Shown here piece after piece: positions 18,890 to 24,264 of a stretch of 40,103 nucleotides of DNA. The notes below the pieces were generated by a model. The model was not told where the DNA came from. It ran no database searches and saw only the letters and a list, made by a program, of their open reading frames with translations. This DNA comes from a virus: IMG/VR virus record IMGVR_UViG_3300008266_000137, positions 1-40,103 of that record; one strand, written 5' to 3'. Position numbers and translations under genes: made by a program. Within the stretch, counting starts at the first letter, position 1. Each line of letters starts with the position of its first letter.

Positions 18890-18914
18890 GACTCATAGAT
18901 TATGAGATTGTGAG
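18885..18914. promoter_or_regulatory. Palindromic operator with repeated CTCAT half-sites
   Basis: CTCATA (18892-18897) and TATGAG (18901-18906) form a perfect inverted repeat around GAT, lying over the -10 box and start point of the leftward promoter. Extra half-sites CTCAT at 18885 and GTGAG at 18910 flank it at 7-8 bp spacing. Two adjacent palindromic half-site pairs are the usual footprint of ribbon-helix-helix tetramers. Confidence 0.6.
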
Positions 18915-18925
18915 ACGGATTGCAA
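18897..18925 (-). promoter_or_regulatory. Leftward early promoter
   Basis: On the leftward strand TTGCAA (18920-18925), a 17-base spacer and TAATCT (18897-18902) form a sigma-70-like promoter. Only seven bases separate the -10 box from the ATG at 18889, so transcription should begin at or near the start codon. Confidence 0.6.
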
Positions 18926-18951
18926 GGGATATTTTGAGGAAAGTTGGATGC

Positions 18952-19050
18952 GCTAAAAGAATGAACCCCGCTGTGGTCCAGGTAGCGAATCTGGCAGCGG
19001 GGTCCGGTGTCTCACAGAGCAGCGCCCTTTTGGAGGGAGCGAACATTTTT
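18952..19050 (+). ncRNA. Strong hairpin plus possible terminator; candidate small RNA
   Basis: ACCCCGCTG (18965-18973) pairs perfectly with CAGCGGGGT (18995-19003), with an inner CCAG/CTGG stem, and GCGCT/AGCGC (18952-18956/19020-19024) could enclose it. A weaker CCCT/AGGG hairpin (19025-19037) follows, with TTTTT at 19046-19050. This reads as a structured segment with an intrinsic terminator just before the next promoter. No clear promoter for it was seen, so it may instead be an insulating terminator region. Confidence 0.4.
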
Positions 19051-19053
19051 ATC

Positions 19054-19083
19054 TTGACACGGAAAACGGATCTCGTCTAGTCT
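19054..19083 (+). promoter_or_regulatory. Rightward promoter upstream of the structured RNA and ibrB/ibrA
   Basis: TTGACA (19054-19059), an 18-base spacer and TAGTCT (19078-19083) make a sigma-70-type promoter with a perfect -35 box. The predicted start near 19090 leaves about 384 bases before the first gene. It is divergent from the ribbon-helix-helix promoter. Confidence 0.65.
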
Positions 19084-19089
19084 GAAGTT

Positions 19090-19440
19090 GTCCACAGGGC
19101 TTAGCCGCTCTAAACACCGTTCGATCAGCACTTCGATTATCGACGGTAGCAACACCCAAATTTAGTTCGATAAGGCTAAGGCCAAACCTGAGGACGACTC
19201 TAGCTCGAAAGGGCTAGCGGGCATAAGTCGCCGTAGCAGGTGCCTCCCAGCTCGTTAGGACCGCCGCCGTACAGGACGCACACCAGAGGGTAGGAGTTGC
19301 TACAGGTGCCAGCGCCGAAGATTGCCAAGCTGGATGCCTGAAGGGCCTTGGCTCCGAAGGGTAAAAGGTACTATTTGCTTCCTACGAACATCGTAAGAGG
19401 TTAAGTAGTACCCTGCCTTCTAAACCTTTCACGCAAAGGG
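19090..19440 (+). ncRNA. Large structured RNA / long leader upstream of ibrB
   Basis: No coding frame is supported here, yet the strand is full of pairing. Stems seen: CTTAGCC/GGCTAAG (19100-19106/19174-19180) enclosing an ACCG..CGGT hairpin; CGACT/AGTCG (19195-19199/19226-19230) around CTAGCTC-GAAA-GGGCTAG (19200-19217); GTAGCA/TGCTAC (19233-19238/19298-19303) with CCTCCC/GGGTAGG inside; CAGG-CCAGC/GCTGG-CCTG (19303-19340), whose loop GCCAA (19324-19328) can pair with TTGGC (19348-19352) as a pseudoknot; GGTACTA/TAGTACC (19367-19373/19406-19412) with a TACGA/TCGTA tip; and CCTTT/AAAGG (19425-19439). It could be a stand-alone RNA or a riboregulator. I do not recognise it as a known family. 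Confidence 0.65.
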
Positions 19441-19473
19441 TAAATATAAGAAAACAGGAGAGATTAGAGAGCA

Positions 19474-20631
19474 ATGAATCTAGTAGCAAGTCACATGCTT
19501 TCATCGTTCAAAGAGGTTTGCGAGGATCTAAAGTTTATGCCCCTCGAAGAACAGGTGGAAGTATTAAATGAATTGCGGACCATGCTTCACAAGGCTGGAC
19601 CGTTCGCCAATGAGCCGGTCGATTTGGTTCTTTGGGTGCCGCTTGAAAAGGTTGAGGCAAACGACTACAACCCAAACTCTGTCGCGCCGCCTGAGATGAA
19701 GCTGTTGGAGCGTTCCATTGACGCAGACGGGTACACTCAGCCAATCGTTTCATGGCCCAGGGATGGCGTTTTCGAAGTCGTAGACGGATTCCACCGCAAC
19801 CGCGTCGGTCGAGAGTCCAAGATTGTGAAGAAACGCATTCACGGATTTTTGCCGCTCACGGTGATCCGAGATGAGCAACAGGACAAAAGTGACCGCATGG
19901 CGTCGACTATTCGCCACAATCGAGCGCGTGGCAAGCACAAGGTCGAGTCTATGTCTGACATCGTGATCGAACTCAAGCGGCGCAACTGGTCAGATGAGCG
20001 CATCGCTAGGGATCTCGGAATGGATCGTGATGAGATTCTGCGACTCTGCCAGATTACCGGCCTTGCGGAGATGTTCAGTGACCGTGAGTTTTCCGCATCT
20101 TGGGACGTTGAAGGCAACATCACCGAGGACGATTTTAAGGGCCTGACGGATGATGTCAGCGAGTATGGCGAAGAGGCAGAGCAGTTTCGCACCGTTAACA
20201 CCAGCGACGAGGACCGCGTGTTCCATACCTATGAGAAATGGGAATGCCACAAGGCAGGATTCTACGCCTCTACGCTAAATGGGATGACCAAGGAGGAGGC
20301 AGAACTGAAATACGCTCAATTTTTGGCCGATGAATCGGTATTCGGCGCGGCTCTGGAGCGCGTAACGACAGAATGGAAGCATTCCTGCGAGCATTACCTG
20401 ACAAACAAGGCCATGAACCGCATCGCGTGGCTTGGACAGGCTTCTGTGTGTTTGGCTTTGGGCATTCCGTCATCGTTTCGAGGCGGGTTTAACCTGCTGC
20501 CAGAAGACAAACAGGAATCAGCGAACCAGCTTGCGTTGAAGTACCTGAACAAATGGCTTGTGGCGAACGGTCGCGCTGAAGTCACGATGGAAGAAGCCTA
20601 TTCCGGTGAAAGGCAATCGGTGATCTACTAA
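19474..20631 (+). CDS. IbrB-like ParB/Srx-domain protein
   Basis: The 385-residue protein has an N-terminal helical lead, then a ParB/sulfiredoxin-like domain (about residues 50-150): the DYNPN box at 64-68, GYTQPIV at 86-92 and VVDGFHRNRVG at 102-112, the equivalent of the ParB DGxHR nucleotide-binding box. A helix-turn-helix-like region follows (about 170-195, WSDERIARDLGMDRDEILRL). Its immediate coupling (TAATG) to a PAPS-reductase-family gene is the IbrB-IbrA arrangement known from E. coli prophage-like elements, where the pair controls gene expression. A plasmid-type partition role is not supported. The role in this phage is unknown. An AGGAG lies 13 bases before the ATG. Confidence 0.78.
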   Translation: MNLVASHMLSSFKEVCEDLKFMPLEEQVEVLNELRTMLHKAGPFANEPVDLVLWVPLEKVEANDYNPNSVAPPEMKLLERSIDADGYTQPIVSWPRDGVFEVVDGFHRNRVGRESKIVKKRIHGFLPLTVIRDEQQDKSDRMASTIRHNRARGKHKVESMSDIVIELKRRNWSDERIARDLGMDRDEILRLCQITGLAEMFSDREFSASWDVEGNITEDDFKGLTDDVSEYGEEAEQFRTVNTSDEDRVFHTYEKWECHKAGFYASTLNGMTKEEAELKYAQFLADESVFGAALERVTTEWKHSCEHYLTNKAMNRIAWLGQASVCLALGIPSSFRGGFNLLPEDKQESANQLALKYLNKWLVANGRAEVTMEEAYSGERQSVIY

Positions 20632-21908
20632 TGGGAATCAAGTGCTATCGGGATGTGAACGTGCTGGATGCGGCACGAAACCGGATCGCAACCACATTCG
20701 ACACAGTAGAACGTGTATTCGTGGCGTTCTCTGGCGGCAAGGATTCATCGGTAATGCTTCATTTGGTCATGGATGAGGCAATCAAGCGGGGGCAGCGTGT
20801 AGCGGTCATGTACATCGACTTTGAAGCGCAGTATGCCGAGACGGTGACACACGTTGAAGAGATGTTCGAGCTTTACAAGGATCACATTGATGCTCACTGG
20901 GTGTGCATTCCGATGCTGCTACGAAACGCGGTTACCAACTATGAGCCGCGCTGGACCTGCTGGGATGAGACAAAGAAACATCTTTGGATCAGGGAAAAGC
21001 CGACGCAGCACAAGGGCCTCGAAGACTATCCGTTTGCGCTGCCAGAGATGGAGTTTGAGGAGTTTGTGGTGTTGTTCGCAAAGTGGTACGGCGAGGGCAA
21101 GAAAACAGCGGGATTCATTGGAATCCGTGCTCAGGAATCACTTCACCGATATTGCGCGGTTGCCACATGGGAGAAACGTGACCTGATGCTTAACGGTCAT
21201 CGCTGGACAACCAAGATCACGGATCAAGCGTACAACGTGTACCCGATCTATGATTGGCTGACTACGGACATTTGGACATACCACGCCAAATACCCGTGGA
21301 AGCCGCATAACGCCATATACGACAAAATGCAGATGGCAGGTGTTCCACTTTCGCAGCAACGATTGTGTCAGCCGTTTGGAGATGACCAGCGCCGGGGCTT
21401 GTGGCTATATCACATTCTCGAGCCGCAAACTTGGTTCAAGCTGGTGGTTCGCGTGAACGGTGCTAACTCTGGAGCGTTGTACGTGGAAGAAAACGGCAAC
21501 ATCAGCGGGTACAACAAGATTACCAAGCCCGACAATCACACATGGAAGAGCTTCTGCAATCTGTTGCTTCAGACGATGCCGAAGAAAACCAGGGAGCATT
21601 ACGTGTTCAGGTTCAAGAAGTTTATCCACGGCTGGCATGATCGCGGCTACACTTCGATACCCGAAGAGGCTCCCCCAGAGCTTGAGGCGAAGTGCTGGGC
21701 ACCGTCATGGCGTCGCATGTGCAAGGTTCTTCTACGGAACGACTACTGGTGTAAGGGATTGGGGCAGACGCAACCGAAGTCTGACGCATGGATGAAATAC
21801 AAGGGAATCGTGAAGGAGAAAAAAGGAAATGTTGGCAATACCGACAGCGGAATCGCTGAAGAGGATAGAATCGCTGGTACAGAAGAAGGAGCAGAGAATG
21901 CCGCTTAA
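20631..21908 (+). CDS. IbrA-like PAPS-reductase-family protein with DUF3440-type C-terminus
   Basis: The 425-residue protein has a PP-loop ATP-binding motif, FSGGKDSS, at residues 33-40, then YIDFEAQYAETV, an RxxES-HR block (GIRAQESLHR), and PIYDWLTTDIW, all typical of phosphoadenosine-phosphosulfate-reductase-fold proteins of the IbrA type. The second half (LCQPFGDDQRRGLW, WFKLVVRVNGANSG) matches the DUF3440 region by eye. The catalytic Cys motif of true PAPS reductases was not seen, so sulfonucleotide reduction is doubtful; adenylation or sulfur transfer chemistry, as in DndC relatives, is possible. It is translationally coupled to the ParB-domain protein. Confidence 0.82.
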   Translation: MGIKCYRDVNVLDAARNRIATTFDTVERVFVAFSGGKDSSVMLHLVMDEAIKRGQRVAVMYIDFEAQYAETVTHVEEMFELYKDHIDAHWVCIPMLLRNAVTNYEPRWTCWDETKKHLWIREKPTQHKGLEDYPFALPEMEFEEFVVLFAKWYGEGKKTAGFIGIRAQESLHRYCAVATWEKRDLMLNGHRWTTKITDQAYNVYPIYDWLTTDIWTYHAKYPWKPHNAIYDKMQMAGVPLSQQRLCQPFGDDQRRGLWLYHILEPQTWFKLVVRVNGANSGALYVEENGNISGYNKITKPDNHTWKSFCNLLLQTMPKKTREHYVFRFKKFIHGWHDRGYTSIPEEAPPELEAKCWAPSWRRMCKVLLRNDYWCKGLGQTQPKSDAWMKYKGIVKEKKGNVGNTDSGIAEEDRIAGTEEGAENAA

Positions 21909-23330: not shown

Positions 23331-23560
23331 CACGGACCGAAGCTGAAGCACTGATGACGCGGATAGGGTGCATTGATACGCGGAATGTGGCATGTTTGCA
23401 CATTGTTTATGCAAGGTACTGCCATGAGCGAGGGCTAGGGAACATGCAGAAATTGCCCGTGGCTGAAGCATATGCGCTACTAGTAGCCGCTATCAAAGAA
23501 GATAAAGGCAAAGTCCCACAACAACAAGCACTATTCAATACAAGCAGGAGCGCATTATGA
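23327..23560 (+). CDS. Small hypothetical protein
   Basis: The 77-residue product (MTRTEAEALMTRIGCID) is helical with no known motif. The start at 23327 is chosen because it overlaps the preceding TGA; the longer frame from 23219 would read through the micro-membrane gene. Its own stop overlaps the HNH start. Confidence 0.6.
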   Translation: MTRTEAEALMTRIGCIDTRNVACLHIVYARYCHERGLGNMQKLPVAEAYALLVAAIKEDKGKVPQQQALFNTSRSAL

Positions 23561-24264
23561 GGCGAGATTTTGCAAGCGTTATGTGGATGCCATTGCGCGA
23601 ACGCTTTGAGCTTCAACACACAAAAGAACCCATGTCTGGATGTTGGCTTTGGATGGGAAGTGAAAGCGGCGGGTATGGGGAAATTAGTAATAACGGCAAA
23701 AGAATCAAAGCGCATCGAGCTTCGTTGATTCTTGATGGGCAAGACCCAACAGGCAAAGTTGTCATGCACAAATGCGACAACCGCCTATGCGTTAACCCGC
23801 ATCATTTGCAAATCGGCACGTATCTGGAAAACATGCAGGATGCCGTGAAGAAGCGCAGAATTGCACATGGTACGAGATGTAAAAAAGCAAAGCTAGACGA
23901 GCAAAAAGTTTTATTGATCCGAACTTCAAACCTTTCGTTTAGTCGGCTAGGGCGCATGTATGGAGTGAGTAGTAACAGCATCAGATTGATAAAACTTGGA
24001 AAATCTTGGGCGCATGTAGGCGGTAAAATTGGCGCAGATAAAAACATCGGATCTCGTCACGGGCAATCAAAATTAAATGAAAAGTGGGTCAAAGAAATCT
24101 TAGCTTCAACCGAAGGCTTAAAGGCTTTAGCCAATCGTTACAACGTTTGCAAACAGACAATCCATAACATACGAACCAAGAAAATTTGGAAGCATATCGA
24201 GCAACCCCCAGCGGTCAAGCAGGGGCGCTGTTTGAGGAGAAGGGAGCGGACCTGTGAGCCATGA
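23557..24264 (+). CDS. HNH homing-type endonuclease
   Basis: The 235-residue protein has CWLWMGS at residues 29-35, GGYGEI at 38-43, KAHRAS at 51-56, and the zinc/His-Asn block HKCDNRLCVNPHHL at 71-84, then ENMQDAVKKR. This is the HNH type found in phage intron-free homing genes. Two C-terminal repeats resembling DNA-binding helix-turn-helix modules follow (KLDEQKVLLIRTS... and KLNEKWVKEILAS...). The gene is visibly more AT-rich than its neighbours, pointing to recent acquisition. It is inserted between small genes without breaking them. Confidence 0.88.
   Translation: MRRDFASVMWMPLRERFELQHTKEPMSGCWLWMGSESGGYGEISNNGKRIKAHRASLILDGQDPTGKVVMHKCDNRLCVNPHHLQIGTYLENMQDAVKKRRIAHGTRCKKAKLDEQKVLLIRTSNLSFSRLGRMYGVSSNSIRLIKLGKSWAHVGGKIGADKNIGSRHGQSKLNEKWVKEILASTEGLKALANRYNVCKQTIHNIRTKKIWKHIEQPPAVKQGRCLRRRERTCEP

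Follow-up and report, generated by a model that had tools for sequence, protein, structure and literature searches.

An IbrB-IbrA pair in a viral genome, in a fused three-module form, and its possible role in DNA or nucleotide modification

Among the closest described systems, the ibrAB genes of E. coli are reported to activate the prophage eib genes, as Sandt and co-workers are said to have found in 2002. The chromosomal copy of the pair in E. coli is described as being under CitR regulation (PMC9068703), and the names IbrA and IbrB are used in papers on glacier viruses and on Flavobacterium phage FCL-2 (PMC4490671, PMC4541368). A comparable arrangement is described for Dnd phosphorothioation, in which the ParB-superfamily protein DndB stands beside the PP-loop enzyme DndC, an enzyme described with three Fe-S cysteines and a distinct cysteine dyad (PMC10853773). 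In phages, the IbrB-IbrA pair is previously known, annotated and widespread: tblastn against 50,697 phage records found IbrA in 216 and IbrB in 221, and several of the matching records already carry these names. An earlier note on the present locus, made from the sequence, had identified the pair properly and overlooked this prior annotation.

The window, meaning the whole stretch of DNA analysed here, is an entire virus record of 40,103 bases, possibly a fragment of a larger genome. Profile matches (Pfam/PHROG) reveal P22-like portal, coat, scaffold and terminase genes in it. The features discussed below are as follows.

18900-19473, plus strand: untranslated stretch 5' of IbrB, separating divergent early genes; no plus-strand ORF of at least 60 aa lies entirely inside it
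19474-20631, plus strand: IbrB-like protein, 385 aa, ATG start, with the C module fused (ORF, PHROG, AlphaFold2 model)
19621-19929, plus strand: aa 50-152 of IbrB, a domain with the ParB/Srx fold (Foldseek/VIA search, matching Noc, ParB, KorB and sulfiredoxin)
19783-19797, plus strand: DGFHR box of IbrB, aa 104-108 (conservation among 158 non-redundant IbrB)
19930-20115, plus strand: helix-turn-helix region of IbrB, aa 153-214 (match to the KorB DNA-binding domain 1r71)
20206-20628, plus strand: C module, aa 245-385 of the IbrB fusion, a third component that is helical and separable
20631-21908, plus strand: IbrA-like protein, 425 aa, ATG start, PP-loop/PAPS-reductase-fold domain plus DUF3440 (ORF, Pfam, PHROG, AlphaFold2)
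20730-20747, plus strand: PP-loop SGGKDS of IbrA, aa 34-39 (conservation among 150 non-redundant IbrA)
21366-21368, plus strand: near-invariant Cys246 of IbrA (RLCQPFGD), Cys in 143/150
21750-21752, plus strand: near-invariant Cys374 of IbrA (YWCKGLGQ), Cys in 142/147

Both ORFs lie exactly where the earlier note had placed them. The translational coupling that it proposed agrees with the one-base overlap between the TAA stop codon of IbrB and the ATG of IbrA (TAATG), and its view that the pair leads the rightward operon agrees with IbrB being the first sizeable gene of the rightward block, beyond a region of about 575 nt that separates it from the leftward genes. On comparison with relatives, both ORFs are judged to be real genes under strong purifying selection. 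Homologues occur in the same gene order at up to 92 % identity for IbrA and up to 81 % for IbrB, and the comparison of IbrA with its counterpart in locus L002 gave a dN of 0.055 and a dS of 1.57. Downstream in the same block there is also a plus-strand gene for an HNH endonuclease (PF13392, 1.6e-6) at 23557-24264.

IbrB matches PHROG 2159 at 9.9e-70, which places it in this family, with the ParB/Srx fold, while its score for Pfam ParB_N is under the cut-off (16.4 vs 26.3 bits). The AlphaFold2 model (mean pLDDT 86.0, pTM 0.49) matched KorB 8qa9 across model residues 50-214 (Z 13.7, rmsd 5.5, 153 aligned) and sulfiredoxin 6ky4 (Z 10.3, rmsd 2.7, 89 aligned), with Noc and ParB also among the matches, so that the ParB/Srx reading given previously stands. 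The helix-turn-helix superimposes on the KorB DNA-binding domain 1r71 (Z 7.4, rmsd 1.2, 57 aligned), and SbnI and free serine kinase match the IbrB model at Z about 8. The DGFHRNR box, already claimed to be intact, is unbroken at residues 104-110, and D104, G105, H107, R108, N149, A151, G153 and H155 all have a conservation of 1.0 among the 158 non-redundant IbrB sequences. The hallmark motifs of the ParB CTPases are GERR and ENxQR. IbrB fails this motif test, since the same 158 sequences have near-invariant GFHR and RHNRARG in place of them. The DG-x-HR box aligns with DGVHR of SbnI as a weak match (E 0.34). A palindrome search for IbrB operators within the window gave none above shuffles.

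IbrA matches PHROG 2302 at 2.5e-81, which places it in the IbrA family, and it also matches Pfam PAPS_reduct (3.5e-14) and DUF3440 (1.2e-35, 123.4 bits against a cut-off of 25). Its AlphaFold2 model (mean pLDDT 82.1, pTM 0.74) matched PP-loop enzymes, among them FAD synthase at Z 15.9 (rmsd 3.4 over 175 aligned), APS reductase at Z 15.6 (rmsd 3.5 over 178) and CysD at Z 15.2 (rmsd 5.2 over 173). The two fold predictions, ParB/KorB-type and PP-loop, are thus those that the earlier note had expected, and the failure of structure prediction that it named as a refutation did not occur. In PP-loop enzymes, a loop of the SGGKDS type signifies the use of ATP. The FSGGKDSS stretch of IbrA is unbroken at residues 33-40, again as claimed, and S34, G36, K37, D38 and S39 have a conservation of 1.0 among 150 non-redundant sequences, which argues for ATP use. 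CysH, the assimilatory PAPS reductase, carries a C-terminal ECG(I/L)H motif. This motif is absent from the window IbrA sequence, in line with the previous remark that no PAPS-reductase catalytic cysteine motif was seen, but that remark missed the two near-invariant cysteines, Cys246 and Cys374, which are jointly present in 136/150 IbrA sequences. Alanine replaces Cys246 in 5/150, so Cys246 is not strictly required. Compared with the DndC cysteine pattern, IbrA has these two near-invariant cysteines and three others that are partly conserved. We considered C92, C110 and C364 as an Fe-S triad and rejected them as a single site, all three occurring together in 66/150 sequences with weak covariation.

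To describe the linkage of the two genes, viral contigs were arranged into 115 loci (L002-L116), in which several contigs are counted twice. When the window is added to the 88 distinct viral loci, 89/89 have a called IbrA and 88/89 a called IbrB, and the next commonest neighbour of the pair reached 11/89. The cellular set comprised the best 80 of 324 confirmed relatives in a genome collection of bacteria and archaea, and IbrB was called in 72 of these 80 loci. In profile searches over the 226 loci gathered, the window copy among them, A (IbrA) and B (IbrB) were adjacent in 223/226, and the three loci without IbrB (L029, L037, L182) are truncated by a contig edge near the gene. Among 398 genomes sampled from one bacterial phylum, 8 carried IbrAB. 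IbrB is frequently found mid-operon in the relatives.

Several neighbours were recorded in addition. Two or three ParB-like genes surround IbrA in several actinobacterial, Rhizobium and Bacillus phages (L204, L205, L206, L208), and a second, short PAPS-reductase-fold protein (L055:1230-1598) lies near IbrBA in 3/89 viral loci. A small protein of about 137 aa with no known family (e.g. L129:7600-8013) lies no more than 200 nt from IbrA or IbrB in all nine loci that hold it (L124, L125, L127, L128, L129, L131, L175, L183, L210). In E. coli K-12 (L199), citR, dsbG and ahpCF are neighbours of ybdN-ybdM, which places that pair in a sulfur/oxidation context. We dropped the long ORFs of L182 and L183 as candidate fusions, since they are likely gene-calling artefacts.

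The final 140 residues of the window IbrB are a separable helical module that appears undescribed in the sources searched. The ParB/Srx part of the domain reading in the earlier note held, whereas this C-terminal part had been missed as a separate module. Residues 245-385 match stand-alone ORFs in Microcystis, Pseudoalteromonas and Mycobacterium phages and in Pseudomonas phage Amjad_SA, and C is its own ORF in five cellular loci (L122, L126, L132, L133, L135) among the best 80 of 324 relatives. Profile searches found C in 137/226 loci, and in 137/137 it was within 200 nt of A or B. However, most of these copies are fused and their loci were gathered through A or B, so the independent tests of linkage are the split-C loci and the phage records. 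With the split C of Amjad_SA as bait, 16 viral loci were recovered and the order was B-C-A in 16/16; 6/6 phage records holding C also carry IbrA and IbrB. Loci with the order B-A plus C occupy a single large section of the IbrA tree, on which C changed at least five times. C was absent from the genomes sampled from the one phylum (0/398), with positive controls matched in 3/3 genomes. Pfam gave no family for the window copy at E up to 0.1, and PHROG gave nothing convincing: the window copy had no match, and the best value, 0.019, came from the copy of Mycobacterium phage Gaia. When the full IbrB model was compared with the PDB, the matches covered chiefly residues 45-204, and a viral-structure search returned ParB-type matches. 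Neither C nor the linkage of the GNAT and cupin genes treated next was described in the titles and opening parts of abstracts found in open PMC searches. Within the sources searched, the window cassette appears to be an undescribed, fused three-module form (B::C + A) of a known pair.

Relatives of the pair carry accessory enzymes. A GNAT gene lies between C and A in 6/16 split-C loci, and the same GNAT is found in 11 cellular loci among the best 80 of 324; all 17 matches are within 200 nt of A or B. The Pfam GNAT cut-off was passed by 7/9 copies scanned (L135, L171, L172, L130, L196, L191, L225), while L216 fell slightly below it and L175 gave no match. In 5/5 loci, an ectoine-synthase-like cupin adjoins A or B within 200 nt (PF06339; the L038 copy matches at 2.2e-44). 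An SNF2 helicase occurs in 29/226 loci and is no further than 200 nt from A or B in 23. A methyltransferase of PHROG 11826 adjoins IbrA in one Arthrobacter and one Bacillus phage. In a single contig, the same as L014, IbrA is fused to an N6/N4 DNA methylase (PF01555, 5.1e-39; L077:7096-9198). Near the viral pair, a motif scan found DNA methylases only rarely, in 3/89 loci, one of which is this fusion. The 'putative DNA methyltransferase' of Rhizobium phage RHph_I4 was dropped because it is really a misannotated ParB_N protein. On the IbrA tree, GNAT changed at least 9 times and SNF2 13 times; the accessory genes are scattered over the tree, so none of them is essential. The window holds no relative of the GNAT, cupin, SNF2 or methyltransferase genes seen elsewhere. 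Among the recurrent neighbours of the pair, no DndA, DndD, DndE or cysteine desulfurase was recognised.

Linkage of the pair to a structured RNA, which the earlier note had raised, gained no support beyond local folding. On the plus strand, the whole upstream region folds like its shuffles (z -0.71), and on the minus strand somewhat better than shuffles (z -2.41). A local stable plus-strand fold at 19351-19470 (z -3.94) ends just 5' of the IbrB start codon, where a regulatory hairpin is possible. Rfam gave no match for the region, at gathering or at E up to 5. Searches with blastn and nhmmer found no relative of it in the 115 other loci, the weak blastn matches (E of at least 0.5) being judged chance, and two exact 18-mers from the region led to no homologue in viral contigs. 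In L002, the closest relative, whose IbrA is 92 % identical, IbrB lies inside an operon without such a leader. A conserved structured RNA tied to IbrAB is thus not supported. Where the leftward gene block begins, a strand-specific stable fold was also observed on the minus strand at 18931-19050 (z -4.15), possibly a terminator or operator structure.

Our preferred reading, held tentatively and at somewhat less than an even chance, is that IbrB and IbrA form a complex that uses ATP to modify DNA or nucleotides and works with exchangeable tailoring enzymes. We consider it the most economical because it draws together the ATP-type PP-loop, the two near-invariant cysteines, the ParB/HTH partner, the methylase fusion and the tailoring enzymes. 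IbrB would contact DNA through its ParB/KorB-like domain and helix-turn-helix, and C would most likely keep the complex together or shape its substrate. IbrA would spend ATP, with AMP and pyrophosphate as products, and so prepare a group carried by DNA or by a nucleotide for modification. GNAT, the ectoine-synthase-like cupin and the methyltransferase could act as exchangeable tailoring enzymes, with the window holding the bare B::C + A core. For the phage, the modification might protect DNA from host nucleases, alter repressor binding, or both, and a change in repressor binding would account for the prophage-gene activation by E. coli IbrAB. By analogy with phosphorothioation and a filamentous phage repressor (PMC8569181), this activation could work through modified operators. 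The GNAT, cupin and methyltransferase neighbours and the IbrA-methyltransferase fusion of the relatives are circumstantial pointers to such a role. Counting against it are the rarity of DNA methylases near the viral pair, the lack of accessory relatives in the window, the scatter of the accessory genes over the tree, the failure to recognise a DndD/DndE-like partner among the recurrent neighbours, and the replaceable Cys246. In a bolder and rather improbable version, IbrB-C-A would be the heart of a phage DNA hypermodification system as yet undescribed, in which IbrB::C positions a TilS-like IbrA on DNA and IbrA adenylates a DNA base and then links an amine (or sulfur) to that base. In richer members, GNAT would acetylate and the ectoine-synthase-like cupin would cyclise the attached group, and altered repressor binding would again explain the old prophage-activation effect.

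It is unlikely, though worth serious attention, that IbrB is instead a KorB/ParB-like transcription regulator with IbrA as its nucleotide-sensing partner, switching phage or host promoters for host takeover and leaving the DNA unmodified. The resemblance of the IbrB model to the KorB repressor, its helix-turn-helix, its first place in the rightward operon and the reported activation of the eib genes would all suit a regulator, but the invariant catalytic residues of IbrA would be needless in a mere sensor, the GNAT and ectoine-synthase-like partners look biosynthetic, and IbrB does not lead the operon in many relatives.

ParB/Srx enzymes include nucleotide-dependent kinases, and ectoine-synthase and GNAT enzymes act on amino-acid-like substrates. 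Both facts would fit a pair acting on a small molecule, either the nucleotide pool or a host metabolite, in counter-defence or as an auxiliary metabolic function, and so would the SbnI-like box and the SbnI and free serine kinase matches of IbrB. The position of YbdN/YbdM beside dsbG/ahpCF, surroundings that do not suggest phage DNA, is a counterpoint to a phage-DNA target. However, the helix-turn-helix of IbrB and the IbrA-N6/N4 methylase fusion do point to DNA, and we regard the small-molecule explanation as distinctly unlikely.

A minimal phosphorothioation system, with IbrB as DndB and IbrA as DndC, is very improbable. The near-invariant cysteine pair of IbrA recalls the dyad described for DndC (PMC10853773), and IbrA has weak DndC matches (TIGR03183, 27.5 bits; PADLOC DndC, 29.1 bits), but the TIGR03183 cut-off is 290.4 bits, the three other frequent cysteines are not one site, and cysteine desulfurase, DndD and DndE are missing from the recognised recurrent neighbours. 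An auxiliary metabolic PAPS reductase for sulfur assimilation, as the PAPS_reduct match and existing annotations might suggest, is hardly credible given the ATP-type SGGKDS in place of the CysH loop, the absent ECG(I/L)H, the DUF3440 extension, the constant IbrB partner and a score of 28.1 bits against the cut-off of 254.2 for the NCBIfam model TIGR02057. With the DndC and CysH models so far under cut-off, sulfur is not demanded by the sequence evidence.

Returning to the preferred reading of a modifying complex, IbrAB is spread across phages of many hosts, bacteria and archaea. Together with its GNAT, cupin and methyltransferase partners, the C module, adjoining the pair in every examined locus that holds it, would recast a vaguely defined pair of regulators as an enzyme complex that can be put to the test, and the results name phages in which to seek new DNA modification.

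Among known systems, E. coli IbrA/IbrB (PhiR5_2) and K-12 YbdN/YbdM belong to the same two families and are likewise adjacent and overlapping. The window and PhiR5_2 pairs are 38.8 % identical in IbrA and 53 % in the N-part of IbrB. Unlike the B-A order of the window, the PhiR5_2/YbdNM pair has the order A-B and a short IbrB without C. The Dnd system, as far as its DndB and DndC are described in the source cited above, is alike in setting a ParB-superfamily protein side by side with a PP-loop enzyme, but IbrA misses the DndC model and DndA, DndD and DndE were not recognised near the pair. TilS, FAD synthase, CysD and other PP-loop ATP pyrophosphatases have the fold and the SGG-x-DS loop in common with IbrA, whereas the DUF3440 extension and the IbrB partner set IbrA apart from TilS, FAD synthase and CysD. 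The nearest named phage is Microcystis phage Mwe-JY13 (IbrA 67 %, IbrB 56 % identical), in which C is present, annotated as a CDS separate from that of IbrB, and the flanks are primase, YqaJ and RecT. The split B-C-A phages (Pseudomonas phage Amjad_SA, L211-L226) share the same three components in identical order, with C as its own gene and, in some of them, a GNAT between C and A.
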